Positions 9,612 through 31,518 of a stretch of 36,023 bases of DNA are shown in pieces (position 1 is the first letter of the stretch; each line of letters begins with the position of its first letter). Under the pieces are notes generated by a model. That model worked only from the letters and a program-made list of their open reading frames with translations. It was not told where the DNA came from and ran no database searches. The stretch lies in assembly GCA_918272565.1 (NCBI GenBank), contig CAKJYW010000002.1:108266-144288 (forward strand), in the 5' to 3' direction. Both the position numbers and the translations under genes were made by a program. The stretch comes from Bacilli bacterium (lineage in GTDB: Bacteria; Bacillota_I; Bacilli_A; ML615J-28; CAG-698).

Positions 9612-12600
9612 TATTTACTCCTTTCTGGATCAGCAACCTTCAAACCGAACTCTTTACGTTTACGAGTAATTTCACCATTGATCAAAGTGATATATTCAGT
9701 AAATGTTTCACGTGGGTTAGCATCGTTATTGATAACTTCACGAATAGAGTTTTCAAGGTTACGACCAACATAATATCCTCCTGGAACTTCAGGAACACCG
9801 AATGTAATTTCCCATTGAGAAAGTAAGATATCGCGTTCTGTCTTGCTCCAAGATAATAACTTAAAGGCTTCAATATTAGCAGTATTATGACGAGCAGCAG
9901 CACCCATGATTGATTCTAGTTCACTTGCATATGAGTATTGTACATCAGTAGATGTCCACCACTTCAAGAATTCCCAACTAGACTTGTAATCATCAGATTG
10001 TTGCATAATGATTGCATCAGTACCTGATGCAACACCTCTATTATCAAGGTAAGTAGTTGTTGTTCCATCATCATTTTCGATTGTACGGTATGTACCAGGA
10101 AGTGGAGCGAATGACCATTTACCAGTGATATCAGGTGCGAATACTGTTAATGTATTAAATAGAGTGTATGATGCAATACCAATTGGCATTTCACCAGTAC
10201 GGAAACGGTTTGTGAAACTTGCACTTAAAGCGAATGAATAATCAGTGAAATAACTACACCAATCTTCAAAGGCTTGAAGACCAATTTCAGTATCAAACAT
10301 TGATGCAGTAGCATCATCTGTATAGAATTGACCACCACGTTGATACAAGAAGATCGCATACATTGTTGAACCAGCACCTTCAAGTGGCATGTAGAAGTCA
10401 AGGTTAGAAACTTGTAATTCAGTTACAAGTGACTTAACATCGTCCCATGTCTTAGGTACTTCCCAGTTGTTCTCTTCGAAAATATCAGTACGATAGAATA
10501 AGATATAGAATCCACCAGTATTAGGCATTCCATAATATCCTCCGCTATCGTTTTTCTCTAGGTATAGAGGAACCCATGAACTATATTGGAATCTAGCATA
10601 TTCTGGATAGTCAAATTTAGTGTAAATTGTGTAATTTTCTGGATGACGCTGGCAGTTACCGGCTGCTTCGTTTTCTGGTGTACAAATACCACTTACTTCA
10701 TGGAAGTCAGGTTGACTACTTACATCATATACCGCACCACGAAGCGCGTAGTTAACAGCTAAACCAGCACTAACGTTAATAGCTACATCTGGTCCAATAC
10801 CAGCTAAAGTTGCTGGTAACAATACACCCGGAGCTAAAACTTTAAGCACTACATTAATTCCTGTATCAGGAATGAATGTTGAGTCAATCAAGTTCTTAAT
10901 AGCGTTGGCTTGTTCACGTCCAGTAGAATCACTTGTTAAATACCAAACTTCAATTTCTTTTTCAAATCCTTCAGTTGATGTTACACCAATTGATTGATAA
11001 TCAAAGAAGAATGAACCAAAGAATCCACGAATGCTAAACCAGAAATTCTTAAACCAGTTTGCATTAGCTTTTGGTAATTCTACATTATCACTATGAACCC
11101 ATAAACTTTCGATTGTTAATGTTTGGTCACGAATATCTAAGATCCATGTACCTAGGGCTGATAGGTTAGTTTTGAAGTTTGCTAATTCTTTTGTAACATT
11201 CCAAGGTTTAGAAGCAAATCCACCAACATCTTTTCCATCGACGATTCCACCAATCTCTAGAACTAACTTATCCAAAGAGTTATTTAAGCTACTCTTTTCA
11301 CCAGTTAATTCTGTAAGACGTTTACTTACATAATTAAGTGTAACAGCAGAATCAGAGAATACTTTAACCATGTTTCTACCCTTAGCATCAGGTGCGATAC
11401 TTGGGTTATCACCATATAGGTTATATTCTTGATATTGGTCAGGGTTAGCAGTTGTACGAGCAATAATCTTTAAATAAAGAGTATTCAAGTCATCAACAAC
11501 CTTTTGAACATCACTTATTAATTCACCATAATCACCAATTGTTGCTTGAAGTGAAACAGTGTTTTTACCTTTTTCTAAGTAGAAGTAATAATATTCACCA
11601 TTTGTATCACCGATAGTAATTACTTGATATTTACTACTGTAATAGAAACGAGCATTATTAGCTTCTTTAAATGGAACTTCACCATTGATTAATACTTTTC
11701 TTCCAGTAAACAAACCACGAGATAAGTTTTGTTTTGCTCTGAAAGATATTTGGTAAAGTCCAGATTCTGGAACATCCATTTCCCAAGTAATCCAATCACC
11801 AACAGTTGACCATCTTGTTCCACCAATTGTGTTGTATTTAGTCTTAACTGGATCAGATGGAGTGTTAAGAGCACTTGTTCTATCAGCTAAAGGATATAAT
11901 GTTGGGCTACTTCTTTCAACTGAGTCTTGAGCTTCAATCTTTTGAGAGAAGTCTTGAACTTTCTTATCATCCTTATGAGTAGTAATGTAATCTTCATAAG
12001 AAGGAGTTTCTTGAATAGAAGTAAGTTCAATTCCAAAGATTACTAAGTTTTCTCTTAGTGAAAAGAAAGAAATAGTATTTACTCCTTCATGGAAGTAGAC
12101 AAGATATGGATTAGAAATGAATCCAGTATCATCAATTAAATACTCAGTTCTTTCTTTAAAGATTTCAACTTGAGCAGGCTTTAAGTCATTACCATTAATG
12201 TCTTGCTTAGTTTCTTCTTTATCATGCCATAAACGATAGAATGTTACTGTGTCAAAATTAGAAAATGGAACAGTGCCATTAATATAGATTTGACGTTCAG
12301 CATTACTACCTCCACCTTTTGGTAGATAATAGTCAACTAATAAGCAATACATTCCTGCTTCAGCTACATTAACTTCCCAAGTAACAGTTCCTTCACTACC
12401 TGTGTAATATCCTGTTTTACCAGCATATTGATAATTGTTATCAAAGTCGATACCATCTTCGCTAGCTACGCCATTTAGGATATCAACATTAACTGGAGTA
12501 GAAGGGTTAGGGAAATTCAAATACTTCCAGTAATCTTTTAGATCAAATTCATCCAAACGGTTCTCGTTAACACCAGCTTGGATCTTTAGATAGTCTTGAT

Positions 12601-12769
12601 AGCTTCCATCAGGAATCTCAAGAGCAAGTTGTTTTGAGTTACTAGTGATTCTTCCACTTTGATAACTCTTAACAATGCCATTAACTAACAAGGCTACTAG
12701 ACCTAAAAGTATTACTACTAAAACCACTTTCCCAGCAATTTTAGGATTATACTTTAATTTCTTTTTCAT
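9611..12769 (-). CDS. Giant membrane-anchored solute-binding protein with two carbohydrate-binding-like domains
   Basis: A 1052-residue protein, more than twice the length of ordinary sugar-binding proteins. Residues 14-32 form a single hydrophobic anchor; there is no lipobox Cys, unusual for a Gram-positive binding protein. Two similar beta-sandwich segments follow, around residues 95-255 and 295-440. They share the pattern GxxVTWEVNVxxxGxY...INGxxPF (YINGTVPFSNFD and LINGEVPFKEAN), resembling CBM6/CBM35-like modules. From about residue 610 the sequence becomes a family-1 extracellular solute-binding domain (EIEVWYLTSDSTG, LPATLAGIGPDVAINVSAG, YGMPNTGGFYILFYRTDIFEENN, WEFLKWWTS). The modules probably pre-bind a polymer and the C-terminal domain delivers a fragment to the permeases. 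ATGA overlap with the GH20 gene. Confidence 0.9.
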   Translation of the reverse strand: MKKKLKYNPKIAGKVVLVVILLGLVALLVNGIVKSYQSGRITSNSKQLALEIPDGSYQDYLKIQAGVNENRLDEFDLKDYWKYLNFPNPSTPVNVDILNGVASEDGIDFDNNYQYAGKTGYYTGSEGTVTWEVNVAEAGMYCLLVDYYLPKGGGSNAERQIYINGTVPFSNFDTVTFYRLWHDKEETKQDINGNDLKPAQVEIFKERTEYLIDDTGFISNPYLVYFHEGVNTISFFSLRENLVIFGIELTSIQETPSYEDYITTHKDDKKVQDFSQKIEAQDSVERSSPTLYPLADRTSALNTPSDPVKTKYNTIGGTRWSTVGDWITWEMDVPESGLYQISFRAKQNLSRGLFTGRKVLINGEVPFKEANNARFYYSSKYQVITIGDTNGEYYYFYLEKGKNTVSLQATIGDYGELISDVQKVVDDLNTLYLKIIARTTANPDQYQEYNLYGDNPSIAPDAKGRNMVKVFSDSAVTLNYVSKRLTELTGEKSSLNNSLDKLVLEIGGIVDGKDVGGFASKPWNVTKELANFKTNLSALGTWILDIRDQTLTIESLWVHSDNVELPKANANWFKNFWFSIRGFFGSFFFDYQSIGVTSTEGFEKEIEVWYLTSDSTGREQANAIKNLIDSTFIPDTGINVVLKVLAPGVLLPATLAGIGPDVAINVSAGLAVNYALRGAVYDVSSQPDFHEVSGICTPENEAAGNCQRHPENYTIYTKFDYPEYARFQYSSWVPLYLEKNDSGGYYGMPNTGGFYILFYRTDIFEENNWEVPKTWDDVKSLVTELQVSNLDFYMPLEGAGSTMYAIFLYQRGGQFYTDDATASMFDTEIGLQAFEDWCSYFTDYSFALSASFTNRFRTGEMPIGIASYTLFNTLTVFAPDITGKWSFAPLPGTYRTIENDDGTTTTYLDNRGVASGTDAIIMQQSDDYKSSWEFLKWWTSTDVQYSYASELESIMGAAARHNTANIEAFKLLSWSKTERDILLSQWEITFGVPEVPGGYYVGRNLENSIREVINNDANPRETFTEYITLINGEITRKRKEFGLKVADPERSK

Positions 12770-14619
12770 AATGTTCCACCTCTCAAGTTTCTACTTGTTA
12801 TTAAAACAAATTCAATAAAATCTTCTATTCTCTTCTTGCTTAAAGCAAAATCGCTTCTCTTATTACGAGCCATCCAAAGCTCTTCTCTTTCTTTAACCAA
12901 ATCAAGTGCTAAAATCTCATCAAGATATTTTAGCTTCTTATCAACTCGCACTTCATCACTATAAGCCATCATAAGCTTATAGATTGCCATAACGAGTTTA
13001 ATATTTTCTTTAATCTCACGAACAATTAGTTTTGCGTCTTTGCACTTTAGTTTAAGCATCTTAAGTTCTTTAAGTTTTTCTTTAAAGAAATTATCTAAGA
13101 TATTAAACTGATTTAAACTAATCAAATAACCTTTGTTCTTAGTTTTAAAATATTCTATAGGATCACTTTCACGAGTAGCAAACGTTGACCACATGAATGT
13201 GTAGAATGCTTCTGTTCCGTTTGATTGGTGATGATTTTCATAATTACAATATCTACCTAATGAAAGGAGCATCTCGCCAATTAACTTGCTTTCATCTTTA
13301 AAGATTTCTTCATTTAATACTTTCTTAGCATCAAGTAGCAACCCTTCAGAATTATTCCAACAGCCTAGTCCAAAATAAACCATTTCAGGGTAACTAATAG
13401 GCTGAAATTGTAAATGACCAAAATCACCCCAGTCAGTTAATACTGACCCTAATGCATCGTATTTAACGCTAGCATCAATTGCATTTTTAATGTTTTCTAG
13501 TGCGGCATCAGTTCTACCAAAGAATGAACACCAACTGCTTGTTCCTGGAGCTGAGATATATGTTGTATCTAGGCTCTTTAATAGCTTAAGGTTTTTATCG
13601 AATGGGCTTAATGCATCATATCCCCAATCCATAAAGATCATATCTTTAGGAAGCATATGAAGCAAATCCCCATGTTTTATTAAAACATCCATCCAAATTA
13701 GTGGTGTTTTATTATATTTTCTAATCTCTTCAACAACTTTCAAAGTGTAATCAATATAAACTTTTCCAAGTCCCTCTTTTTCAACAAGTTCTTTTGATTT
13801 ACCTTTTCCCAGTTCAAATGGTTCATCAAAATTCATATTGAAATATTTAGAATTAGATAGAGGTAACATCTCACTATATAAATCTTTAACGAGTTCTAAA
13901 GACTTAGGGTTATTAGGATCTAAGGTTGTAGCTTCCCTTTGCCTACCCCATAGATATATTCCACCAGGGCACTCCGCTAAATCCTTAAATTCATCGAGTG
14001 CTAACCAATCACCCATGTGACCAAATCCATTTTCATTAGGAACTAAGTCAATAGCGTTATTATTACAATATTTTTCTAATTCCTTAAATTCCTCTTTAGT
14101 GATATAAGCATCATCTTTTTGATATCTCTTATATTTCTCATATTCAAAAGATAACCCTTCAACATAAAGCTCAAAATGATTGTATTTAAGCAATGCTAAT
14201 ATATCAACAATCCTCTTTAGTTCTTCTAATTTAGTAACCTTATTACGACTAATATCGTAAGTAAAGCCTCTAACAGCAAGTGTTGGGTAGTCTAAGATAC
14301 TAGCTTCAACAAGCGTTTTTTCTTTTAAAATGTAATAAAGAGAAACTGTAGCATAGAATGCTCCTTCATCTGTTGCTGAATAGATATAAATCTTTTCATC
14401 TTTGATTTCAATCTTATATTCTTCTTTAGCTAATGAAGCATCAACCAAATACAAAAGATTACTGTTTTTCTTATTTGAAACTTTAGTTTTATAAAAAGAT
14501 TTTAGTTTTGTAAAAGCGTTTACTCTTTCAACTTCAAAAAAAACGGACAACTTTTCTGGCCTTAAAAAGCTATTTTGACCGTATTTTATTTGTTTAACTT
14601 TCGGGTAAATTTGATACAT
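12766..14619 (-). CDS. Family 20 glycosylhydrolase (beta-N-acetylhexosaminidase-like)
   Basis: A 617-residue enzyme. Residues 1-105 look like the GH20b accessory domain; the TIM barrel begins at about residue 110 (DYPTLAVRGFTYDISRNKV). The catalytic Asp-Glu pair of GH20 is visible as D265-E266 in NMNFDEPFELG, matching substrate-assisted hydrolysis of terminal N-acetylhexosamines. The C-terminal 200 residues are helical. There is no signal peptide, so it probably acts in the cytoplasm on imported oligosaccharide. It is the first gene of the transporter operon, about 60 bases from the -10, with GGAG ahead of the ATG. It overlaps the binding-protein gene (ATGA). The exact sugar specificity cannot be read from sequence. 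Confidence 0.87.
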   Translation of the reverse strand: MYQIYPKVKQIKYGQNSFLRPEKLSVFFEVERVNAFTKLKSFYKTKVSNKKNSNLLYLVDASLAKEEYKIEIKDEKIYIYSATDEGAFYATVSLYYILKEKTLVEASILDYPTLAVRGFTYDISRNKVTKLEELKRIVDILALLKYNHFELYVEGLSFEYEKYKRYQKDDAYITKEEFKELEKYCNNNAIDLVPNENGFGHMGDWLALDEFKDLAECPGGIYLWGRQREATTLDPNNPKSLELVKDLYSEMLPLSNSKYFNMNFDEPFELGKGKSKELVEKEGLGKVYIDYTLKVVEEIRKYNKTPLIWMDVLIKHGDLLHMLPKDMIFMDWGYDALSPFDKNLKLLKSLDTTYISAPGTSSWCSFFGRTDAALENIKNAIDASVKYDALGSVLTDWGDFGHLQFQPISYPEMVYFGLGCWNNSEGLLLDAKKVLNEEIFKDESKLIGEMLLSLGRYCNYENHHQSNGTEAFYTFMWSTFATRESDPIEYFKTKNKGYLISLNQFNILDNFFKEKLKELKMLKLKCKDAKLIVREIKENIKLVMAIYKLMMAYSDEVRVDKKLKYLDEILALDLVKEREELWMARNKRSDFALSKKRIEDFIEFVLITSRNLRGGTL

Positions 14620-14864: not shown

Positions 14865-16160
14865 TTATATTTCTTTAGCGTCTTTAGTCCATAGCTTCTT
14901 TAGCTCTTCTCTACCTTTAATTAACACATCATTATCTTCTTTAACAAATGAAGAATAAGTAAAGAACATTGTTCCACTAACATTAGGTAGAGTTTGATTA
15001 AACCTTAGTTGATTAGGAATCTCATTAACATCTTGCCAGTTACATGGTCCACCATAGCGGTAAATGCCTTGTCCCATATAAAGTTTACAATTTGTTTTTT
15101 GGCATGCCTCACTCCACCAAACTGCTAAATCAGCGTACTTAACTTGTGAATATTCGTTTCCATCTTTATCGATTTTAGTGTTATCAAAATCAAAATAGTT
15201 TTGAGGAGTAACGTAGTCAATCCAGCCTTTTTCCATCCATTTGTAGACATCAGCGTAAAGGTCACTATAGCATGATAAGCATGATTCATGGTTATTAGAG
15301 CCATATTCCCAGAATTTCTCGTTCTCAATTCCCTTAGTATTAAACTTAGAATTAGTTCTTAAGATTCCAAAAGGACTAATACCAAATTCAACTTTACGAG
15401 GAAGCTTAGCTAGCTTATTATGAATCATTTCAATCATCTTATCGACGTTACCACGTCTAAAGTCACTTAGTGTCTTATAGCCACTATCTTTATATTTCTT
15501 ATATTCATCATTATCTCTAATAGGATCATATGGATAGAAATAGTCATCAATATGAACTGCTTTAATATCGTATTTTTTTGCTATCTCAATTACACTATCA
15601 CTAACAAATTCCATAACCTCACTTGATGCAGGGTCTAAAATTAATTTACTATCCCTACTCATAATTACTAAATCTTTTCTTAGTCTAGCAAAATTGTTAG
15701 GTGCTAATGTGTCTAGATATTCTTCTTTAGTAACTCTTAAATCATCTAACTTCACACCACTAACACGATAAGGATTAATCCACGCATGTGTTGTGATTCC
15801 TTTCTTTTTAGCCTCAGCTACAAAATAGCCAAAAACATCAAATCCAGGATCTTTCCCTTGAACTCCTGTAATAACACTACTCCAAGGATTCATCTTAGAT
15901 TCATACAAAGCATCTGATGTTGGACGAACTTGGAAAACAACAGTATTTAGATGAAATTCTTTGCATTTATCAATTACACCATCTAAATATTTTTTGTATT
16001 CTTCTACACTAGTCATCTTAGGAATATCAATATTACCAACTGTAGAGAACCAAACACCCCTTAGTTCTTCTTTTCTTTCTTTGTATTTCCCTACTTCCAC
16101 AACCTTATCAGTTCCGTAATATGTAACATATCCTTTATAACATTTTCTTTTAATCTTCAT
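14865..16160 (-). CDS. Glycosyl hydrolase family 10-like (GHL10/DUF187) protein
   Basis: A 431-residue protein of the GHL10 family (PF02638). The family start motif ELRGVWFSTV is at about residues 32-41. Next come FQVRPTSDALYESKMNPWSS, THAWINPYRVS, LDPASSEVMEFV, KAVHIDDYFYP and the C-terminal WIDYVTPQNYFDF, all typical TIM-barrel segments. The HIDDYFYP Asp/Glu-type strand is where this family places an acidic residue. Most relatives are secreted lipoproteins with a signal peptide; this one begins MKIKRKCYKGYVTYYG with no hydrophobic segment, so it appears cytoplasmic. GGAGATATACGATG overlaps the end of the LD-carboxypeptidase gene. It is the last gene of the operon. The substrate is unknown; a peptidoglycan-derived glycan is plausible from context only. 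Confidence 0.85.
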   Translation of the reverse strand: MKIKRKCYKGYVTYYGTDKVVEVGKYKERKEELRGVWFSTVGNIDIPKMTSVEEYKKYLDGVIDKCKEFHLNTVVFQVRPTSDALYESKMNPWSSVITGVQGKDPGFDVFGYFVAEAKKKGITTHAWINPYRVSGVKLDDLRVTKEEYLDTLAPNNFARLRKDLVIMSRDSKLILDPASSEVMEFVSDSVIEIAKKYDIKAVHIDDYFYPYDPIRDNDEYKKYKDSGYKTLSDFRRGNVDKMIEMIHNKLAKLPRKVEFGISPFGILRTNSKFNTKGIENEKFWEYGSNNHESCLSCYSDLYADVYKWMEKGWIDYVTPQNYFDFDNTKIDKDGNEYSQVKYADLAVWWSEACQKTNCKLYMGQGIYRYGGPCNWQDVNEIPNQLRFNQTLPNVSGTMFFTYSSFVKEDNDVLIKGREELKKLWTKDAKEI

Positions 16161-17067
16161 CGTATATCTCCTCTAATATTTTGATTGTTAAATTATCAGC
16201 ATCAAGCTCAACTTTAGCACCAATTGGTATAGTCACAAAAGGAAATGAATGCCCTGTTGCGAAATTAGAAATTGTTGGTTTGTTAAGTGGCAAAATGTAT
16301 TCATTTATAATATCTTCTACTTTTTGGTTACTGCTTGAAGTGCAGTCTGTAAAATAGCCCAATATAAAACCTTTAGCTTTCTTAAGTTCACCACTTAATC
16401 TAAGAGTTGAAAGATATCTATCAATTCTATATGGTGACTCTTTTACATCTTCGATCAATACTATCTTATCCTCTAAATCAACTTGATATGGTGTACCTGT
16501 AAGAGTGCTAAGTAGTGTTAAATTACCACCAACCACCTTGCCACAAACCTTTCCACCAACCAAACACTTAGCTTGACCATCAGGACTTTTTAAAACTTTA
16601 TCCTTTAAAGGTGCTTCAAGCATATCAAAAAAGGCATCAATTGAGGCAATATTATTGCCAAGTAGCGATACCCCAACAAGCCCATGAAAACTAATTAGGT
16701 CGCTCATTTTATAAAATGAGTTGATTAATACTGTTATATCGCTATAGCCACTAAATATCTTAGGATTACTCCTAACAATATCATAATCAATCTTATCAAC
16801 GATTCTACTTGCGCCATAGCCACCACGCATACAAATGATTGCTTTAATCCTCTCATCACTAAAAGCATCATTTATATCTTTTGATCTTTGTTCATCAGTA
16901 CCTGCTAGGTATCCATATTTATCATAAAATGATGGATAAAATCTAGTTTTATATCCTCTTTTTTCTAATAACTTTTCAAGTTTTTCTTTTTCGATTAATA
17001 CATTATCACCATTATTAAATGATGGATTTAATATAGCAATTGTATCTCCTTTATGAAGTCGCCTCAT
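16150..17067 (-). CDS. ldcA: LD-carboxypeptidase (muropeptide tetrapeptide carboxypeptidase, S66)
   Basis: A 305-residue member of peptidase family S66, which removes the terminal D-Ala from murein tetrapeptides in the cytoplasm during wall recycling. The nucleophile elbow is GYSDIT with Ser109, preceded by the family motif CMRGGYGASRIVD. The Glu of the triad is most likely E206 in LIEDVKESPYRIDR, and the His is H273 in ATGHSFPF; spacing agrees with characterised S66 enzymes. No signal peptide. The ATG shares one base with the stop of the PIG-L gene (TGATG). Other S66 proteins cleave microcin C-like peptides, but the neighbours favour muropeptides. Confidence 0.88.
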   Translation of the reverse strand: MRRLHKGDTIAILNPSFNNGDNVLIEKEKLEKLLEKRGYKTRFYPSFYDKYGYLAGTDEQRSKDINDAFSDERIKAIICMRGGYGASRIVDKIDYDIVRSNPKIFSGYSDITVLINSFYKMSDLISFHGLVGVSLLGNNIASIDAFFDMLEAPLKDKVLKSPDGQAKCLVGGKVCGKVVGGNLTLLSTLTGTPYQVDLEDKIVLIEDVKESPYRIDRYLSTLRLSGELKKAKGFILGYFTDCTSSSNQKVEDIINEYILPLNKPTISNFATGHSFPFVTIPIGAKVELDADNLTIKILEEIYDED

Positions 17068-17756
17068 CAGTCGAAATTAATCCTTTGAAATTTCTGATAT
17101 CCTTCAATATTGAAACATTGAGCATGTTTTGTTTTATTAAGGCATCCACGAACAAAGCTAAGGTGAGTGTAATAATCATAGTATCTAAAGCTTTCTGAAT
17201 TCATTATAAACCAATGTTTCTTAAGCCCTTCGCACCATAAATCGTAACCTTTTGAGCAATCCACCATTAGATATGGATCAAAATCAACTCTATCTTCCCA
17301 GTTTTCACATAGATATACTGGAGCATAACACCTTGCACCCTTTAGTCTATCACCATCATAGACACTTGCTAGGAAAGAAGCGTCTTTAACAATTTTGTAT
17401 GTTGCTTCGTGGTCTTTATGCATACTCTTTTTCCAATGAGTAAATATGACATTAGGACGGACATCACGAATGATTTGAGCAACCTTAAATACAACCTCTT
17501 CATTATATGGAAGTTCACCATCAGGATAATCTAAAACTATTGCCTCTCCTTTTAAAAGGTGGGCAAATTCATTGGCTTCTTTAATTTTTTGAATCTTATA
17601 TTCGCTTGAAGTCATTGTTTTAGGGTTACCACGTTCGCCAGCAGTCAAGGCTAAAGTCACAATCTTATCACCTTTTAAGCTTCTATCAGCTAAAACGCAC
17701 CCACACGTAAGTTCCATATCACCGATATGTCCACCGATTGCTAAAAAAGTTTTCAT
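17067..17756 (-). CDS. PIG-L (LmbE) family deacetylase-like protein
   Basis: A 229-residue protein of the metal-dependent PIG-L fold that usually deacetylates N-acetylglucosaminyl compounds. The metal-binding signature AHPDDxE appears as GGHIGDMEL: H10, D13 and E15 are kept, but the first Asp (the general base in MshB) is Gly12. The second signature is present as HWKKSMHKDHEATYK (HxDH-type). FTHW and YPDGELPYNEE also fit the family. It starts one base after the double-GNAT stop, with AGGA upstream. A deacetylase of GlcNAc or MurNAc derivatives would fit the operon, but the Gly12 substitution makes the chemistry uncertain. Confidence 0.82.
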   Translation of the reverse strand: MKTFLAIGGHIGDMELTCGCVLADRSLKGDKIVTLALTAGERGNPKTMTSSEYKIQKIKEANEFAHLLKGEAIVLDYPDGELPYNEEVVFKVAQIIRDVRPNVIFTHWKKSMHKDHEATYKIVKDASFLASVYDGDRLKGARCYAPVYLCENWEDRVDFDPYLMVDCSKGYDLWCEGLKKHWFIMNSESFRYYDYYTHLSFVRGCLNKTKHAQCFNIEGYQKFQRINFD

Positions 17757-17757
17757 G

Positions 17758-18738
17758 TTATAATTCCTTTCTTAAAATTGCAAATGAGGCAACAATATGA
17801 AGCCCTGCATATAAATAAATATTACGAGCTTTGTTTTCACTACCAGTAAATAGTGTCATAAATTTACCACCATTTTCTTTGCTCTTTTGAACAAAATAAC
17901 AAAACATTGTCTTTCCAAGTCCTCTACCACGACACTTAGGAGAAATTGCAACACCAGACAAACTTGCTCTACCACTTTCTTCAGTGTGGATAGGGCCAGT
18001 AAAGCCAAGTACTTCCCCCTCTTTTTCAACAATTACAATTGGACGAGGATTCGGTCTAGCTAAATTATAATTAATTGAATTTCTAAATCCTTCATTACCT
18101 AAATCATCAAAGAATTCTTTAAATCCATGATGTTTCTTTTCATCATAGATGGTAATAAAATAACAATCTTCTTCGTTCTTTTTAATTAAATCGATGATTT
18201 CTTGTTTCATCTCATATTTAGTTAAATCGATATGAAAAGCATCTTGTTGGCCGTTCATATAATAACCCAAGCTAGATAAAAGGAAATAGAAAGGCGAATT
18301 AATTAAAACAGCTGGAGCTCCCATGTGTTCATGGTTATTATACCCTGGGACATACCACTTAAAATTAACAGGGTTAGCATAAAAGCACCTTACATAGGTT
18401 TTGCCTTTTTGTTTTAAAAACTCTTCTAACTTTTTTAAGATTTTCGTTCCATATCCTTTTCTTTGGTACTCTTTTTTAATAACAACACAAGTGATATAAC
18501 CTGGAGTTTCACTTGGAGCTAGCCCTCTATTATTATAATTAGCGTTACCAAAGCCAACGAGCGTTTCATTATCATATAAAACTAAGAAACCTTCTTTATC
18601 ATATGTAGGTATCTCAATGAATTTCTTTTTAAATGATTCAACTGTCAAGCTTTCATAAATTGAAGCTTTCGCAACTTCTTCATTCCATAGATCAACAACT
18701 TTTTCAATATCACTATCTTCCATCAATCTAAGAAGCAC
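17758..18738 (-). CDS. Tandem double GNAT-domain N-acetyltransferase
   Basis: About 326 residues with two acetyl-CoA-dependent GNAT modules. The first has TCVVIKKEYQRKGYGTKILK (a Q/R-x-x-G-x-G/A pyrophosphate loop) and the second has GVAISPKCRGRGLGKTMFCY. The segment between includes a family-specific stretch (YVPGYNNHEHMGAPAVLINS). I place the start at GTG 18738 because GGAGGA lies seven bases upstream inside the end of the serine hydrolase gene; the longer reading from TTG 18762 has no ribosome site. The acyl acceptor is unknown; an amino sugar or an amino acid/peptide are both possible in this operon. Confidence 0.85.
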   Translation of the reverse strand: MLLRLMEDSDIEKVVDLWNEEVAKASIYESLTVESFKKKFIEIPTYDKEGFLVLYDNETLVGFGNANYNNRGLAPSETPGYITCVVIKKEYQRKGYGTKILKKLEEFLKQKGKTYVRCFYANPVNFKWYVPGYNNHEHMGAPAVLINSPFYFLLSSLGYYMNGQQDAFHIDLTKYEMKQEIIDLIKKNEEDCYFITIYDEKKHHGFKEFFDDLGNEGFRNSINYNLARPNPRPIVIVEKEGEVLGFTGPIHTEESGRASLSGVAISPKCRGRGLGKTMFCYFVQKSKENGGKFMTLFTGSENKARNIYLYAGLHIVASFAILRKEL

Positions 18739-19816
18739 AGTTTCTTCCTCCAAAATGAGCAATTATATAATTACCAAGTCTTCCTCTAAATGGGATAATC
18801 TTAGTGTTTTCTCTTGTTGGGTGAACACGGTTTGCTAGCATTGTAAAACCAACTTTATTGATTCTATCGATAAAGACATTTGTTCCAGTAAAGCCTGTAT
18901 GTAATATCGTTTCTTTGCTTGCTAAGTCACCAGCACTACAGTAGTCTCCTTTAACAATCCAGCCTAAGCCTCTTTGATTAGTATCTAAGCTAACACCTTT
19001 AGCTTCTTTTACTTGAGGAGTAAACATAAGGTCGACTGTGGCAGGTGATAAGAACATTTTACCTTTATAAACGCCATTATTTAAAACCATTTCAATGAAA
19101 TGAGAAATATCTTTTACAGTAGAGAATAGCCCAGCATGACCAGCTACCCCACCTAACCAGTATGCGCGCTCATCATGCACTTTTCCTCTAACTACGCCAT
19201 GACAAACGATATCGTCTCTATCTTCAGTCGGTGCGCACCTTTTAGCATCAACTGGGTTATAAGTTGTATCATACATCTCAAGTGGATCAAAAACTAACTC
19301 TTTCGCAGCTTCGTTTAGTGGTTTACCAGTAACTGCCTCAACTATAAATCCAAGTAAAATGTAACCGACATCACTATAAACTATTTTAGTATTCTTTTCA
19401 TATGATACTTCTGTAGCATATATTAAATCGATTGCCATATCATATGAAGTGATTGTGGAACCTTTAGTTACACTACTAGGAAGACCAGATGAGTGAGTCA
19501 TCAAATCCCAAATAGTGATATTATCATACATAAATCTAGGTAGATATGTTTTAACACTATCATATAATCTAATCTTACCAGCTTCTAATAGCTTATATAA
19601 ACATGTAGTAGTTGATAAAACTTTAGAGCATGATGCCATATCGTATAATGTATCTATATCATTAACTTCTTCTTTTGGAAGTAATGCTTTTTTACCGTAG
19701 GACGCAAAATATTTATCATCTTTAGTTACTAATCCAATATTACAACCAGGAAAAGCACCATCACTAATGGCATCGTTAATTAGTTTATCAAGTCCTGCTA
19801 AATATTCTTTATTCAT
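18728..19816 (-). CDS. Beta-lactamase-fold serine hydrolase (class C/esterase/D-peptidase type)
   Basis: A 362-residue penicillin-binding-protein-like hydrolase. The nucleophile motif SxxK is S62-C-S-K65 in YDMASCSKVLSTT, the second motif is YSD (canonical YxN) in KIVYSDVGYILLG, and the third is HTG in ILHTGFTGTNVF. No signal peptide is visible, so it appears cytoplasmic, unlike classical PBPs. Relatives include EstB-type esterases, AmpH-like and D-aminopeptidase-like enzymes. In this operon an activity on D-Ala-containing peptides is plausible but unproven. Its 3' end overlaps the double-GNAT gene and its start overlaps the dipeptidase end by eight bases. Confidence 0.87.
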   Translation of the reverse strand: MNKEYLAGLDKLINDAISDGAFPGCNIGLVTKDDKYFASYGKKALLPKEEVNDIDTLYDMASCSKVLSTTTCLYKLLEAGKIRLYDSVKTYLPRFMYDNITIWDLMTHSSGLPSSVTKGSTITSYDMAIDLIYATEVSYEKNTKIVYSDVGYILLGFIVEAVTGKPLNEAAKELVFDPLEMYDTTYNPVDAKRCAPTEDRDDIVCHGVVRGKVHDERAYWLGGVAGHAGLFSTVKDISHFIEMVLNNGVYKGKMFLSPATVDLMFTPQVKEAKGVSLDTNQRGLGWIVKGDYCSAGDLASKETILHTGFTGTNVFIDRINKVGFTMLANRVHPTRENTKIIPFRGRLGNYIIAHFGGRNCAS

Positions 19817-20717
19817 CGCTCTCTCCCTTTATATAAAGTAAATCTTTGTATTTGTTATAGAAATTACTCCATGTAATCTTATTAATATCTTCTTCACTAT
19901 ATCCACGTTCTCTCATAGCATCTACTATCCTATAAACAAGGGTTGCATTAGCTACATCCATGATATTATCATTACCATAATCGCTCAAATAATCCATGAA
20001 ATCAAAGCCAAAGCAAACATTATCTACACCCATAAACTTAATAGCGTAATCTAGGTGATTAATGAAATGGTAAACATCTTGTTCGTCTTTATTCTTGCTA
20101 ACAAAATTATTAGCTAGTGTTAACCCAAATAAACCATTTGCTTTCTTAAGCTCAATCATCATTTCATCAGTCATGTTTCTAACATGATCACACAAGCTTC
20201 TACAACATCCATGTGAATAGATTAATTTATCATAGCCTTTACAATAATCTAATACTTCAAAGAAACTCTTGTGATTTAAGTGAGCTAGGTCAACAATCAT
20301 TCCAAGTTCCATCATTCGAGATAGTAGCTTCTTTCCATCTTCTTTTAATCCCATCTCAGGATTACTCTTAGCACCTGTAGCATAGATGTTTTCTTCGTTC
20401 CATGTTAACATCGCATGACGGAAGCCCATCTTATAAAGGACATCGATATCTTCCCACTTCTTTAAGTTTCTGCATCCTTCAATTCCTAAGATTACATTAA
20501 ATTCTTTAAAATCGCTTAAATCAAGTTCATTTAATGCAATTTTACAAGCATTGATTAAATCAAAGTCATATGAAGAATACATTGTCCAAATAGCACCTCT
20601 AACTAAACTATTCTTTAGTTGAGGAACATGGAAAGATGTAAATCTATTCTTTTCTCCTTGTTCATATCGATTATATAAATCAAATAACATATCACTATGA
20701 GTATCAAAGAATTTCAT
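19809..20717 (-). CDS. Possible internal start: separate M19 dipeptidase product
   Basis: ATG 20717 lies in frame inside the fused gene and is preceded by AAGGAGGAAAAA, one of the best Shine-Dalgarno sites in the window. It begins exactly at the first residue of the dipeptidase domain (MKFFDTHSDM). Translation from it would give a 302-residue protein, close to the usual size of short M19 dipeptidases. It is listed as an alternative product of the same frame, not an extra locus. M19 enzymes hydrolyse dipeptides, including ones with a D residue, using a binuclear metal site. Confidence 0.55.
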   Translation of the reverse strand: MKFFDTHSDMLFDLYNRYEQGEKNRFTSFHVPQLKNSLVRGAIWTMYSSYDFDLINACKIALNELDLSDFKEFNVILGIEGCRNLKKWEDIDVLYKMGFRHAMLTWNEENIYATGAKSNPEMGLKEDGKKLLSRMMELGMIVDLAHLNHKSFFEVLDYCKGYDKLIYSHGCCRSLCDHVRNMTDEMMIELKKANGLFGLTLANNFVSKNKDEQDVYHFINHLDYAIKFMGVDNVCFGFDFMDYLSDYGNDNIMDVANATLVYRIVDAMRERGYSEEDINKITWSNFYNKYKDLLYIKGESDE

Positions 20718-22019
20718 TTTTTCCTCCTTAAAGACACATGTATTAACTAAATCAAATACTTCTTCTCTCCTAATTGCTACACTTACCTTATCATTATTAA
20801 CAAAGATACAAGCCCCACGTGTTAAACCATTATAATTCATAGACATAGAGTAGCAATAAGCTCCAGTTGCATAAACTACTAAAGTGTCGCCTTCACTAAC
20901 TTCACCAAGTTCAATATCAGTAGCGATGATATCTCCACTTTCGCAACATTTCCCAACAACATCACATAAATATTTCTTATCATTTTCCATATGATTAGCA
21001 ATATCAACAGTGTATTTTGCTTGATATAAAGCAGGGCGAATATTATCTCCCATCCCTCCATCAACAAACACATAACGTTTTTTACCGTATGTCACTTTGC
21101 TACCATTGCTTTTATATAATGTTACTCCGTTATCTCCTATTATGCTCCTGCCTGGTTCAATCATAATCTTTTTTAGATTGCTATTATTACCAAATAGTGC
21201 CTCTAGATTCTTGACTGTATCAGTTAGCATCTCTTTTAAGTTTATCTCTTTATCACTATCAAGGTATTTAATACCAAAGCCTCCACCTAAATCTAAGACT
21301 TTAACCTTTTCTAAAGTTTCTTTTTCAAATTCCATAATAAATTCATACATCTTTTTGCCTTCTTCAATGAAAGCAGTGCTTTCATTGATTTGGCTACCAA
21401 TATGAGCATGGAATCCATCAAAGATGATCTTATCATTAGTTTTATATAAATCCATCATCTTCTTTAGTCTATCTAAATCATAGATAGATTCACCAAACTT
21501 ACTGTTTAGAGCACTAGTTACAATGTATTTGTGAGTGTGTGCTTCAATTCCTGGGTTCACTCTAATTAAAGTGTGGATTTCTTTTTTAGTGTTTTTAGCT
21601 ATCTTTAATAATCTAGTTAGTTCTTCTAAATTATCAATAACGATATATTCAACACCTAAATCGATTGCCATCTTTAATTCTTCATCGCTTTTATTATTGC
21701 CATGAAGAATAATTCTGTTTTTGTTAAAGTGGCTTCTTTCAACTAAGAACATGTCCCCACAACTAACAGCATCGATTCCAAAATCATATTCTCCTAAAAT
21801 ATCACATAGATATGGAGCTAAGAATGCTTTAGATGCATATACTACTTCACATTCAAAGATATCACTCTTAAAATATTTTTTAAATGTATCGAGCTTTTCT
21901 CTTAAACCAGCTTCATCAAAAACATACAAAGGTGTTTTATAGATATTAGCTAGATCAGTCGCTTTAAACTTTCCAATATATAAATTATTGTCTTTTATAG
22001 TCATTGATTTTGTCTTCAT
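19809..22019 (-). CDS. lysA: Diaminopimelate decarboxylase fused to an M19-family dipeptidase
   Basis: A continuous reading frame (741 residues from ATG 22034; numbering here uses that). Residues 15-435 are a complete PLP-dependent DAP decarboxylase: PLP lysine K69 in VVYASKAFL, GFHAHIGSQI, LDLGGGFGIKY, MIEPGRSIIG, the catalytic Cys-Glu-Ser in VVGKCCESGD, and GAYCYSMSMNYNG. Residues 440-741 are a renal-dipeptidase/M19 domain with metal-site motifs THSDM (H446, D448), ILGIEGCRN, VDLAHLNH and YSHGCCRSL. ATG 22019 is preferred because GAGG lies six bases upstream. The joint is only about five residues (FKEEK), and the bases coding it form AAGGAGG directly before ATG 20717, so the dipeptidase may also be made separately. 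Confidence 0.9.
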   Translation of the reverse strand: MKTKSMTIKDNNLYIGKFKATDLANIYKTPLYVFDEAGLREKLDTFKKYFKSDIFECEVVYASKAFLAPYLCDILGEYDFGIDAVSCGDMFLVERSHFNKNRIILHGNNKSDEELKMAIDLGVEYIVIDNLEELTRLLKIAKNTKKEIHTLIRVNPGIEAHTHKYIVTSALNSKFGESIYDLDRLKKMMDLYKTNDKIIFDGFHAHIGSQINESTAFIEEGKKMYEFIMEFEKETLEKVKVLDLGGGFGIKYLDSDKEINLKEMLTDTVKNLEALFGNNSNLKKIMIEPGRSIIGDNGVTLYKSNGSKVTYGKKRYVFVDGGMGDNIRPALYQAKYTVDIANHMENDKKYLCDVVGKCCESGDIIATDIELGEVSEGDTLVVYATGAYCYSMSMNYNGLTRGACIFVNNDKVSVAIRREEVFDLVNTCVFKEEKMKFFDTHSDMLFDLYNRYEQGEKNRFTSFHVPQLKNSLVRGAIWTMYSSYDFDLINACKIALNELDLSDFKEFNVILGIEGCRNLKKWEDIDVLYKMGFRHAMLTWNEENIYATGAKSNPEMGLKEDGKKLLSRMMELGMIVDLAHLNHKSFFEVLDYCKGYDKLIYSHGCCRSLCDHVRNMTDEMMIELKKANGLFGLTLANNFVSKNKDEQDVYHFINHLDYAIKFMGVDNVCFGFDFMDYLSDYGNDNIMDVANATLVYRIVDAMRERGYSEEDINKITWSNFYNKYKDLLYIKGESDE

Positions 22020-22026
22020 AATTGCC

Positions 22027-22587
22027 TCACACATTATACCTATTTTTATTATATAAAATATTTAATACTCCACTCTTCTTTTCTCCTAATGCCGTATCAA
22101 ATATAAGTTTCTTAAATGGTTTAAAACCGCATTTTTCTTGAACTCTTCTGCTTCTATCATTTTCGTCAAAGTGCCCACAAGTAATAAAATCCAACCCTTC
22201 AACATTAAATAAATAGCTGATTACTTCTTTAACAGCTTCCGTCATTATTCCTTGCCCCCAATAGGCACGACTTAAAACAAATCCAATTTCCCGACCCATT
22301 AGGTCATTAAGTTCTGTTAATTTTTCATCATTATATTTATCAACTCCAACTGAGCCTACGACTTTATTATTAATTACAATAGCAAAAGTGTGCTTTCCAT
22401 TAATGAATTTAGCTAACCTATCTTTAGATTCATCAATTGAAGCATGATGAGCCCATCCAGCAGCCTCACCTACCCCTTCAACTTTTGCATATTCATACAA
22501 ATCATCAAGGTCGCTTTGTTTAAAGGCACGAAGAGTTAACCTCTCTGTTTTTAATACAATTTTTGATATATCAATTTCTTTATTCAT
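22027..22587 (-). CDS. GNAT N-acetyltransferase (RimJ/RimL type)
   Basis: About 186 residues. The N-terminal LKTERLTLRAFKQSDLDDLY and the later REIGFVLSRAYWGQGIMTEA are the typical first strand and acetyl-CoA-binding region of the RimJ/RimL-like acetyltransferases. ENDRSRRVQEKCGF matches their conserved N-x-x-S-x-x-x-x-E-K-x-G-F motif. I use ATG 22587; a GTG at 22602 would add five residues. It is the first gene of the scavenging operon, and its stop is seven bases from the preferred lysA start. Acceptor unknown. Confidence 0.85.
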   Translation of the reverse strand: MNKEIDISKIVLKTERLTLRAFKQSDLDDLYEYAKVEGVGEAAGWAHHASIDESKDRLAKFINGKHTFAIVINNKVVGSVGVDKYNDEKLTELNDLMGREIGFVLSRAYWGQGIMTEAVKEVISYLFNVEGLDFITCGHFDENDRSRRVQEKCGFKPFKKLIFDTALGEKKSGVLNILYNKNRYNV

Positions 22588-22682: not shown

Positions 22683-23216
22683 TTAATAATTTTCTTTTCT
22701 TACTTCAAAATAGCTTTTTGGATGAGCACAAACAGGGCAAACTTCAGGAGCTTTCTTTCCAATAACTAGATGTCCACAGTTTCTACATTCCCACATTACT
22801 TCTTCGCTCTTTTCAAATACTTTTTGCATTTCAATATTATTTAGTAATGCAAGGTAGCGCTCTTCATGAGCTTTTTCAATTTTAGCTACTCCTCTAAATT
22901 GTCTAGCTAAATCTAAGAATCCTTCCTCTTCAGCTTCACGAGCAAACTTATCATACATATCAGTCCATTCATAGTTTTCACCAGCTGCAGCTGCCTTTAA
23001 GTTATCAGTAGTTGATCCTAATTCACCTAATGCTTTAAACCACATCTTAGCATGTTCTTTTTCGTTTTCAGCAGTCTTTAAGAAAATTTCAGATATTTGT
23101 TCATATCCTTCTTTTTTAGCAACTGATGCAAAGTATGTGTACTTGTTACGAGCTTGGCTTTCACCAGCAAATGCTTCACGCAAATTCTTTTCAGTTTTTG
23201 ATCCTTTTAATTCCAT
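22683..23216 (-). CDS. rbr: Rubrerythrin
   Basis: A 177-residue non-haem iron protein of peroxide defence in anaerobes. Residues 1-135 are the four-helix diiron domain, with ligand motifs [26 protein letters not shown] and IEKAHEERY. The C-terminal rubredoxin-like knuckle has two CxxC pairs (CRNCGH at about residue 142 and [11 protein letters not shown] near 158). Length is typical. AGGAGGAAAATATATG overlaps the end of dusB by ten bases, so it is translated from the dusB transcript. It suggests an anaerobic or microaerobic host. Confidence 0.95.
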
Positions 23217-24184
23217 ATATTTTCCTCCTCTTTTAGATCCTTAATAAATTGATAAAACTCATTCTTAGTTTTTAAACTAACAATCCTCATCTTTAACTCT
23301 TTAGCTTTTTTAAATCCTTTAACATAATAATTAGCTAAAGTTCTCATCTCTAAAACAGCATTCTTTTCGCTCTTTATCTTTAACATTTCATTAAATTGAT
23401 ATTCCATCATATCAATCTTTTCTAAAGAAGTTGGTGCTGCTTTTAGCTTTTCACCGTTAAAATAATCAACTAAATCACGAATAAACCAAGGGTTTCCTAT
23501 CGTGGCACGACCAATCATTATTGCATCACACCCCGTATATTCTATCATCTTCTTGGCATCTTCTATTGTTTTAATATCCCCATTACCAACTACTGGAATT
23601 GAAACTACCTCTTTTACCATCTTAATATAATCGAGGTTTACTTTACCATGATACATATCACTTCTAGTTCTACCATGAATTGTAATCATCTTAGCTCCAG
23701 CAGCCTCAGCCATTTTAGCTACTTCAACGCAATTTATATTATTATGATCAATCCCTGCTCTAATTTTAACAGTTACTGGTTTAGATGTGGCGCTAACTAC
23801 GGCCTTAACTATTTCATAAACCTTCTTAGGGTCTTCTATTATAGCACTACCAGCCCCCGCTTTTAATACTTTTCTAACAGGGCATCCCATATTAATATCT
23901 ATTATATCAATATCATCTCTTTTATCAAGCATTAGTGTAGCGTTATGCATATCAGAAGCGTCTCCACCAAATAACTGGATAGCTACCGGATGCTCTTCGC
24001 TACTAGTATTAGTTAATTCCCAAGTCTTGTCATTTTCATAAAGCAAGCCCTTAGCACTAATCATTTCACTAAATACTAATGAAGCTCCCATTTCTTTATA
24101 GATCTTACGATAAGCGATATTAGTATAACCAGCAAGTGGTGCTATTATTATCTTATTTTTAAGTTCGATATCTCCAACTTTCAT
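23207..24184 (-). CDS. dusB: tRNA-dihydrouridine synthase
   Basis: A 325-residue flavoenzyme reducing uridine in tRNA D-loops. Family motifs in order: [16 protein letters not shown] near the N-terminus, VAIQLFGG, then [20 protein letters not shown] with the catalytic Cys, [30 protein letters not shown] and [15 protein letters not shown]. The arrangement is DusB-like. The ribosome site AGGTGA lies six bases before the ATG and only a few bases past the T run of the SRP RNA, so expression must come from read-through or from a promoter within the RNA gene. Confidence 0.93.
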
Positions 24185-24195
24185 GCTTCACCTAC

Positions 24196-24316
24196 AAAAA
24201 AGATCTCACCTTAGGACTCCAAACCCACATAACCAGTTAAGCTTAAGGCTGCTTCAATCACGACCTGACCTGGTTCACTGCCAGCTATTGGATGTGGAGA
24301 CCTAAAATGAGATCTC
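24196..24316 (-). ncRNA. ffs: Small bacterial SRP RNA (4.5S-like)
   Basis: About 120 bases, minus strand. The two ends form a long helix: AGATCTCATTTTAGG-TCTCCA at the 5' side pairs with TGGAGTCCTAAGGTGAGATCT at the 3' side. The apical part contains ACCAGGTCAGGTC, then GTGATT, then GAAGCAGCC and later AACTGGT, matching the Ffh-binding domain IV (GGUC...GAAGCAGCC). Six T follow the 3' helix and make it its own terminator. The location next to tadA matches Bacillus. The tip differs from the common GGAA tetraloop. Confidence 0.9.
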
Positions 24317-25661: not shown

Positions 25662-26042
25662 ATGATTCAACAGGAAAAATATGATTTAATCAAATTTATT
25701 GATGGAAACTTTAGTTTAGATGTAAATGTATCTCCTAATGAAGATACTGTATGGTTGACACAATCTGATATTGCTTTACTATTTGTTAAAGATAGGAAAA
25801 CAATAAATAGGCATATTCAAAACATACTAAAAGAATTGGAACTCGATGAAAAATCAGTATGCTCAAAAAAAGAGCATACTGCCAAAGATGGTAAAGTTTA
25901 TACTGTTAGAATTTATAATTTAGACATGATTATAGCAATAGGATATAGAGTAAAATCTTATCGTGCTATCAGTTTTAGAAGATGGGCTACATCCATATTA
26001 AAGGAATACCTATTAAAAGGTCATATTATTAATGAAGATTAA
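25662..26042 (+). CDS. Short RhuM-family protein (N-terminal domain only)
   Basis: 126 residues matching only the conserved N-terminal RhuM domain: FSLDVNVSPNEDTVWLTQSDIALLF, a helix-turn-helix-like KDRKTINRHIQNILKEL, then SVCSKKEHTAKDGKVYT, YNLDMIIAIGYRVKS and FRRWATSILKEYLLKGHI. It ends at HIINED, precisely where the neighbouring copy at 26119 continues into a further 150 residues. RhuM proteins are poorly understood, often carried on pathogenicity islands and prophages; DNA binding is inferred from the fold. It may be a functional short regulator or a truncated duplicate. A perfect 10-bp hairpin lies within codons 65-74. Confidence 0.78.
   Translation: MIQQEKYDLIKFIDGNFSLDVNVSPNEDTVWLTQSDIALLFVKDRKTINRHIQNILKELELDEKSVCSKKEHTAKDGKVYTVRIYNLDMIIAIGYRVKSYRAISFRRWATSILKEYLLKGHIINED
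25855..25881. repeat. Perfect 10-bp inverted repeat inside RhuM copy 1
   Basis: CAGTATGCTC and GAGCATACTG flank a seven-A loop. It encodes SVCSKKEHTA. The equivalent place in copy 2 also holds a perfect hairpin of different sequence. Confidence 0.85.
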
Positions 26043-26118: not shown

Positions 26119-26958
26119 ATGAATGATAAAGAAAAATACGAACTAATCAAATTCACAGATGGAAACTTTAGTTTAGATGTGAAAGTATCACCTAATGAGG
26201 ATACTGTATGGCTAACACAAAAAGAAATGTCTCAATTATTTAGTGTAGATAGAACAAGAATAACTAGACACATTAGTAATATTTTAAAAGAAAATGAATT
26301 ACCCCAATCAGTATGTGCGGAAAACGCACATACTGCTTCTGATGGGAAAACATATATTACGACTTATTATAATTTAGACATGATAATTGCAATTGGTTAT
26401 CGTGTCAATTCTAAAAGGGGTACACAGTTTAGAAGATGGGCTACTTCCATATTAAAGGAATACCTATTAAAAGGTCATATTATTAATGAAGAAAGATGCT
26501 TGTCTTGTACTAGTAATATCATAGATTTACAAACTAAATATAATGCTATTAATAATAAAATAAAGGAAATTGAAGAATCTCTTTTTGAAACAAACGATAA
26601 ACTTATTTATGAAGGAGAATTGTTAGAACCTATCACTTTCTTAAGAAAGCTCTTCTTCTTGGCAAAAGACAATATCATTATCACTGATTTCTATGCTGAT
26701 AGTTTCTTATTGACACTACTTAAGGATATCAAAGTCCCTATTACAATCATCACATCAAGTGAATCATATTTGAATAATATGGATATACCAAATAATATAA
26801 GCATTGTTCATAATGATAACATCCATGGTCGCTATATATTTATAGATCAATATATTTATGTAATGGATAATTCATTTAATTCAATTGGTAAGAAAAGATT
26901 TGTTATTGTGAAGTTAGAAAACATTAATAAAGAAATGATATTAAAAGGCATTATATAA
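26119..26958 (+). CDS. Full-length RhuM-family protein with degenerate HKD-like C-terminus
   Basis: 279 residues. Residues 1-122 repeat the RhuM domain of the preceding gene (FSLDVKVSPNEDTVWLTQKEM, VDRTRITRHISNILKENE, SVCAENAHTASDGKTYITTY, FRRWATSILKEYLLKGHI). Residues about 123-160 are helical with CLSC. Residues about 165-279 resemble the C-terminal module found in many RhuM proteins, with the phospholipase-D-like sequence NIHGRYIFIDQYIYVMDNS followed by FNSIGKKRFVIV. Many relatives read HDR where this has HGR, so phosphodiesterase activity is doubtful. It has the same weak, long-spaced ribosome site as its neighbour. Possible roles are mobile-element or defence regulator; no function is established. 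Confidence 0.82.
   Translation: MNDKEKYELIKFTDGNFSLDVKVSPNEDTVWLTQKEMSQLFSVDRTRITRHISNILKENELPQSVCAENAHTASDGKTYITTYYNLDMIIAIGYRVNSKRGTQFRRWATSILKEYLLKGHIINEERCLSCTSNIIDLQTKYNAINNKIKEIEESLFETNDKLIYEGELLEPITFLRKLFFLAKDNIIITDFYADSFLLTLLKDIKVPITIITSSESYLNNMDIPNNISIVHNDNIHGRYIFIDQYIYVMDNSFNSIGKKRFVIVKLENINKEMILKGII
26309..26335. repeat. Perfect 11-bp inverted repeat inside RhuM copy 2
   Basis: CAGTATGTGCG and CGCACATACTG enclose a GAAAA loop and encode SVCAENAHTA. The inner stem bases differ from copy 1 on both arms, so pairing is kept by compensatory differences. Confidence 0.85.
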
Positions 26959-30764: not shown

Positions 30765-31518
30765 ACGCTTCTTCAATTAATGGAGTAATCTTCTCTACAT
30801 CTTTTTCGCTTTTTATAATAAAACTCTTAAATTTATTATCTATTTTTAAAACAACATTAAGTCCATTTAAATAATAAACATACATGAAGTTTTTAATTCT
30901 ACGGTAAGATGCACATCCATTTAAATACGATTTACATAATTCATCTCCATATGAATAGGCAACCTCATCAACCAAACGATATAATTTATTAATATTATCG
31001 TCATCAGTTAACTTAACATCACTAGATACAAAATTCTGATAAATCTTTTCTAAAACAATTATGTCTTTATCAACTAAAATACATTTAATTAAATCAATAT
31101 CAAATGGTAGGAAAGTAATAGCTTTGCCATCATATGAATTAAAGTCTTCCCCAATAACAATAAGTCTTGGATCATATATTAATTCTTTAGCTTCATCTCC
31201 TAGTTTTTCTTTAAATAAAACTTTGATTTTACCTAAATTATTTCTAATATAATCAAGATATTCTAATCCTTTGTGGATTGTAGGGGAATTCTTACCTTGA
31301 TGGTATTCAATTACTACTAATCTTTTGTCTTCATCATATCCAAATGATTCTACTATCTCACCATTTTTTCCTGTAATATTGATATTACTAAATATTACTT
31401 CAACTCCAAGTAAGCTTAAAGAATTTGCTTCAATTAACTCTTGAAGGTTACTTTTTGTAACACTAGTAATCTTAAGTTCTTTTTGTTTTTTTAGATTATA
31501 TAGACGTATATCACTCAT
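30751..31518 (-). CDS. DUF5655/NucS-like-fold protein with altered active site
   Basis: 255 residues. The layout resembles proteins with an N-terminal PD-(D/E)xK nuclease-like domain (ANSLSLLGVEVIFSN, GEIVESFGYDEDKRLVVIEYH, GLEYLDYIRNN, PRLIVIGEDFNSYD) and a C-terminal DUF5655 domain (SYLNGCASYRRIKNFMYVYY, VVLKIDNKFKSF). In relatives the nuclease strand reads GRIDxLG...VIIEYK; here the Asp is missing and the Lys is His. So the N-terminal domain may bind nucleic acid without cutting. Assignment is from recall of the motifs. AGGTGA precedes the ATG. Confidence 0.65.
   Translation of the reverse strand: MSDIRLYNLKKQKELKITSVTKSNLQELIEANSLSLLGVEVIFSNINITGKNGEIVESFGYDEDKRLVVIEYHQGKNSPTIHKGLEYLDYIRNNLGKIKVLFKEKLGDEAKELIYDPRLIVIGEDFNSYDGKAITFLPFDIDLIKCILVDKDIIVLEKIYQNFVSSDVKLTDDDNINKLYRLVDEVAYSYGDELCKSYLNGCASYRRIKNFMYVYYLNGLNVVLKIDNKFKSFIIKSEKDVEKITPLIEEAYDEN

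Follow-up and report, generated by a model that had tools for sequence, protein, structure and literature searches.

A lysA–M19 dipeptidase gene fusion in an apparently wall-less lineage of the Bacilli and its possible role in lysine salvage from foreign peptidoglycan

The window, meaning the whole 36,023-nucleotide stretch of DNA analysed here, belongs to a MAG of a Bacilli bacterium (G000; 47 contigs, 1,690,413 bases, 97.4% complete, 0.15% contamination). On its minus strand, a diaminopimelate (DAP) decarboxylase continues in frame into an M19 dipeptidase:

19809–22034, minus strand: lysA::M19 fusion gene, a single uninterrupted open reading frame of 741 amino acids from ATG 22034
20742–22034, minus strand: DAP decarboxylase (LysA) half, residues 1–431
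20718–20741, minus strand: linker TCVFKEEK joining both enzymes
20723–20729, minus strand: internal Shine-Dalgarno sequence AAGGAGG, 5 nt before ATG 20717 (Met440)
19809–20717, minus strand: M19 dipeptidase half, from Met440

The two halves of the fused protein

The sequence-only reading of this DNA had described LysA and M19 enzymes joined without a stop codon, each complete by its motifs, and both descriptions hold. The LysA half reaches 408.3 bits against the TIGR01048 equivalog (cut-off 297.9; residues 13–431), and the M19 half reaches 188.3 bits against PF01244 (cut-off 26; residues 511–727); the N-terminal HxD motif (H446-x-D448) lies shortly before that match. The LysA motifs are intact, comprising the PLP lysine K69, HIGSQ 211–214, EPGR 293–296 and CESGD 364–368. 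In the M19 half, the metal ligands H446, D448, E519, H585 and H608 and the catalytic D678 are all present, with roles assigned by comparison with renal dipeptidase and a structure alignment. Residues K69, H211, G250–252, E293–R296, C364–E365 and Y393 of LysA, and H446, D448, E519, H585, H608, R619 and D678 of M19, are invariant among the 12 fused proteins known from this family. Moreover, the charged and catalytic ones among these residues are also invariant across wall-less genomes (13 for LysA and 12 for M19).

A structure model (12 rows; pLDDT 81, pTM 0.58) confirmed the LysA fold; no M19 match appeared among the top 50 structure matches of this model, in which the domain packing is unreliable. 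The structure matches of the M19 half include bacterial and human renal dipeptidase. With regard to selection, dN/dS is approximately 0.04 in both halves for the wall-less pair G013/G015 (dS is near saturation and the values are approximate), and 0.07 when the M19 part of the present genome is compared with that of G023 (an approximate value, dS being high). As judged from codon comparison, these values show purifying selection on both halves, and both look like complete and active enzymes. The true start is probably ATG 22019 (736 amino acids) rather than ATG 22034, because the relatives begin at M[KR]T.S and GAGG precedes ATG 22019.

Spread of the fusion and its internal start

The search for the same fusion in relatives, which the sequence-only reading had proposed, returned 12 fused genomes from six genera, all within one small wall-losing family of the class Bacilli (28 family genomes searched). 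These are G000, G024 and G025 (g1), G013–G015 (g10), G019 and G020 (g13), G010 (g7), G002 and G003 (g3), and G018 (g12). In seven others (G011, G012, G026, G027, G001, G008 and G009), lysA and M19 are separate genes that adjoin or overlap, and in another family of the same order the two genes lie apart. The named relatives are 'Acholeplasmatales/Mollicutes' MAGs. At the thresholds used, no fusion was found outside the family among 395 genomes of the class and 392 of the phylum; two candidates, LysA in open frames of 707 and 681 amino acids in G282 and G288, proved to be separate lysA-dapF-dapA genes with an intervening stop. With the fusion common to six genera and present in 12 genomes, neither a recent stop loss nor an assembly error, the two alternatives raised earlier, describes it. 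In a tree of LysA plus M19, the fused proteins occupy two positions; one common fused clade is rejected (p-AU 0.0018), and the fusion probably arose at least twice; one fusion followed by later fission is possible.

The DNA of the linker reads AAG GAG GAA AAA ATG, and its AAGGAGG is indeed placed for ATG 20717 at the first residue of the dipeptidase, as had been noticed from the sequence, with a spacing of 5 nt. An internal in-frame AGGAGG-N4-9-ATG occurs in only 7 of the 1130 genes of at least 150 amino acids in this genome, some of them probably through wrongly assigned starts, and Lys and Glu are encoded there less often by AAG (32%) and GAG (16%) than by the alternative codons. The placement of a Shine-Dalgarno motif right where the two domains meet is therefore not due to chance. 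In the unfused relatives, the Shine-Dalgarno sequence and ATG of the separate M19 gene lie at the same site; AAGGAGG-ATG is thus a start inherited from a dipeptidase gene that was once separate. A stop before this ATG, which the earlier reading had thought worth seeking in relatives, is present, for example, in the unfused G011 (TTT TAA AAG GAG AAT TTT ATG, in the same frame), and absent from the 12 fused genomes.

Such a start could serve to make two products on purpose, the fused enzyme and a free dipeptidase from ATG 20717. This proposal of the sequence-only reading stands in part, and as a purposeful arrangement it is somewhat less likely than not: AAGGAGG at 5 nt is a strong start, and Shine-Dalgarno sequence plus ATG are kept at the joint in the present genome, G024, G014 and G015; however, the joint of the congener G025 reads AAAGAAGAAAAGGTA, with neither Shine-Dalgarno sequence nor start, G013 has ATA in place of ATG, which weakens or abolishes the internal start, and the Shine-Dalgarno sequence is missing in g3, g7, g12 and g13. 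These losses indicate that the fused group does not generally require a free dipeptidase. The internal Shine-Dalgarno/ATG is partly a relic of the ancestral separate gene, and some free dipeptidase may still be made in the present species.

Gene surroundings and the missing wall genes

The fused gene lies in a cluster of the following genes:

23207–24184, minus strand: DusB, conserved upstream neighbour of the cluster
18728–19816, minus strand: serine hydrolase (PF00144), most like PBP4B/YfeW, always adjoining lysA/M19
17758–18762, minus strand: double GNAT acetyltransferase
17067–17756, minus strand: PIG-L type N-deacetylase
16150–17067, minus strand: S66 LD-carboxypeptidase (muramoyltetrapeptide carboxypeptidase family)
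14865–16160, minus strand: GHL10 glycosyl hydrolase of the DigH family
12766–14619, minus strand: GH20 beta-N-acetylhexosaminidase
7639–12769, minus strand: ABC importer, with a large solute-binding protein and two permeases

The order DusB-LysA-M19-SerHyd-(GNAT)-(PIG-L)-(S66)-GHL10-GH20 recurs in relatives with and without the fusion and with and without wall genes, although certain genomes lack individual members, and no evident signal peptide was seen in the proteins from DusB to GH20 (N-termini judged by eye). YfeW-type genes presumably have a role beside murQP, in keeping with the gene order seen in E. coli. Directly beyond the low end of the window lie NagB and a NagZ-like GH3, the latter with a score of 205.6, slightly short of the NCBIfam cut-off of 207. 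Elsewhere in the genome, NamZ-MupG-AnmK-MurQ are encoded on contig C44 and Opp permease components on C22, and every enzyme family of the MurNAc catabolism NamZ-MupG/NagZ-AnmK-MurQ-NagB is present. By gene content, the set amounts to a pathway that handles murein sugars and peptides in the cytoplasm, and since walled relatives also have the cluster, it would have begun as ordinary wall recycling. No enzyme cleaving D-Glu-DAP was found in the genome (NlpC/P60, considered as the missing step, is absent, and MpaA has no match), nor was a secreted murein hydrolase in a search for the NlpC/P60 family.

No lysine riboswitch was found at the cluster. The only RNA match in the window is a small bacterial SRP RNA (24211–24302, minus strand) upstream of DusB, in a position conserved in relatives. 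Within the cluster, positions 16150–17880 stand out in the comparison with a related MAG, L062 (Tener_01): PIG-L and S66 are 92–99% identical (mostly 96–99%) and the flanks mostly 67–87%, with a dS of 0.12 for PIG-L and about 1.2–1.6 for its neighbours. This 1.7-kb PIG-L/S66 block looks, from the sequence, to have been recently recombined; a dN/dS of 0.80 for S66 was a frame artefact and was set aside. Furthermore, consecutive open reading frames on the plus strand at 25662–26042 and 26119–26958 match the start of Virulence_RhuM, as in a broken or duplicated gene.

The whole genome was queried by tblastn with E. coli K-12 proteins. MraZ, RsmH, FtsZ, DapF and Asd gave matches, and no match was found for MurA, MurC-G, MraY, FtsI, FtsW, RodA, MrdA, DdlB and FtsA, nor for DapA, DapB and DapD. 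As a control, the same queries matched FtsI, MurE, MurF, MraY, MurD, MurC and Ddl in pieces of the genome of G024, a congener. Profile searches covering 43 genomes of the order gave the same picture: the present genome has no PBP transpeptidase and only one weak Mur_ligase_M match (2.2e-10), where most walled relatives have 5 to 9; this domain also occurs in folylpolyglutamate synthase. DapA and DapB are absent from it and from 40 of the 43 genomes, with positive controls, and DapF is found at 233 bits (cut-off 115). In G024, ftsI is flanked by a permease and a Na/Pi-type transporter, and in contig C14 of the present genome these two neighbours are directly joined, 38 bases apart (30986 to 31024), which argues that the loss of wall genes is not an assembly gap. 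The organism thus appears to be wall-less and unable to make DAP, as far as the gene content of draft assemblies, mostly MAGs, can tell.

That the fusion or the missing wall genes result from an error of assembly or binning seems hardly credible. Nearly all records with readable titles are MAGs; nevertheless, the same fusion recurs in 12 independent assemblies, wall genes are gone inside contiguous syntenic blocks, Mur ligases and PBPs give concordant counts over the 43 genomes, and the present genome is 97.4% complete with 0.15% contamination.

Loss of wall genes seems to have occurred repeatedly in this small order of 43 genomes, even inside the genus of the present organism, whose MraZ and RsmH are retained at G000:C14:24361-25727 with the rest of the division/wall cluster gone. 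The walled genomes, including G024 and G025, also lack DapA and DapB, and the MurE motif of G024, DSPR, is closer to the DAP type; the DAP of the walled relatives' own wall may be scavenged too. One genome, G016, has no PBPs, with DapA and DapB side by side and no match to DapF, and could be contaminated.

In the order, 14 genomes devoid of PBPs keep LysA without DapA and DapB, nine of which have a completeness of 90% or more. The same fusion and cluster also occur in the congeners G024 and G025, whose gene content is that of walled bacteria, suggesting that the wall was lost recently within the genus. On these grounds the LysA/M19 pair might be a leftover of recycling of the organism's own wall, kept by inertia after the loss; however, the wall-less genera g10, g13 and g12 retain the pair with intact catalytic residues, the low dN/dS in G013/G015 comes from wall-less genomes, and DapF is retained though DapA and DapB are gone, and such inertia appears improbable. 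Four wall-less relatives (G017, G021, G022 and G023, of which G017 and G023 are incomplete genomes) show no LysA, so the salvage route would be dispensable.

Proposed function and relation to known systems

The reading that we favour, with a probability of roughly 0.7, is that the fused protein is a bifunctional cytoplasmic enzyme that salvages lysine from the DAP of other bacteria's peptidoglycan; its activities, the import and the foreign origin of the DAP are inferred. Fragments of peptidoglycan would be imported, and the muropeptides would be trimmed by products of the same cluster, namely the glycosidases and the S66 LD-carboxypeptidase. The M19 half would then split a wall-derived dipeptide, most likely meso-DAP-D-Ala, given that M19 enzymes accept a D-residue at the second position. 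The freed meso-DAP would be decarboxylated to L-lysine by the LysA half, and DapF, encoded elsewhere in the genome, would turn LL-DAP into meso-DAP. The in-frame joining of two overlapping operon genes would have produced the fusion, which may hold both activities at a fixed ratio and couple dipeptide cleavage to decarboxylation. The idea that the release of wall dipeptides is coupled to the formation of lysine, already suggested by the sequence-only reading, fits the gene surroundings; what that reading missed is that the wall in question would be that of other organisms, because this one appears wall-less and unable to make DAP. The odds appear about even for a broader proposition, in which the wall-less lineage depends on other bacteria's peptidoglycan for lysine and peptidoglycan is food and a lysine source, not structure.

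M19 enzymes such as Sco3058 and renal dipeptidase act on L,D-dipeptides. Their substrate range, together with the renal dipeptidases among the structure matches, would also suit a M19 half that acts on L-Ala-D-Glu in place of a missing L-Ala-D/L-Glu epimerase route, with the fusion reflecting operon neighbourhood more than substrate hand-over. No YcjG-like epimerase was matched in the genome, although a distant epimerase could escape tblastn with a single E. coli YcjG query, and the gene order is conserved even where lysA and M19 are unfused. The repeated fusion to LysA, and not to other cluster members, better fits a DAP-releasing step, and the L-Ala-D-Glu role seems rather unlikely.

If the proposed salvage of DAP from foreign peptidoglycan is right, the locus would be a case, open to test, in which bacteria without a wall feed on peptidoglycan by means of a fusion of two enzymes that apparently originated on more than one occasion. 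The natural series from separate to overlapping genes, to fusions with a relic start and fusions without one, bears on how operon genes become one protein. In the largely open-access literature that was searched, no relevant report was found of a fusion of LysA to M19 or another dipeptidase, nor of a DAP decarboxylase in Mollicutes or DAP-to-lysine salvage in wall-less bacteria.

The protein shares with LysA (TIGR01048) its whole length, score and catalytic residues, and differs by the added C-terminal dipeptidase and a genome without DapA and DapB. With the M19 dipeptidases (renal dipeptidase, Sco3058, Lmo2462 and GliJ) it shares the family score, metal ligands and catalytic Asp, whereas its N-terminal part is shorter, it lies behind LysA and no signal peptide was seen. 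The aspartokinase-LysA fusion (NF006515) is likewise bifunctional and contains LysA, but its partner, aspartokinase, catalyses a biosynthetic step; the present protein scores 192.7 bits against this model (cut-off 802) and has no kinase domain. A complete DAP pathway to lysine would need DapA and DapB, which have no match in the genome.

With regard to wall recycling, Gram-positive MurNAc recycling serves a cell with its own wall (PMC5061867, PMC6262408). This genome likewise encodes NamZ, MupG, MurQ, a NagZ-like enzyme and a YfeW-type hydrolase; however, the Mur ligases, MraY and PBPs needed for reuse in an own wall were not found in it, and LysA::M19 and DapF would lead to lysine instead. 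Tannerella forsythia, a MurNAc auxotroph, scavenges wall parts of other bacteria for its own wall (PMC5790795); living on others' wall parts would be common to both, whereas reuse in an own wall is not, as no wall genes are found here. Finally, wall loss in Mollicutes is described as accompanied by the loss of asd, dapB, dapF, lysA and mur genes (PMC3313985), whereas the present lineage, though devoid of wall genes and of the first steps of the pathway, keeps the final two steps to lysine.
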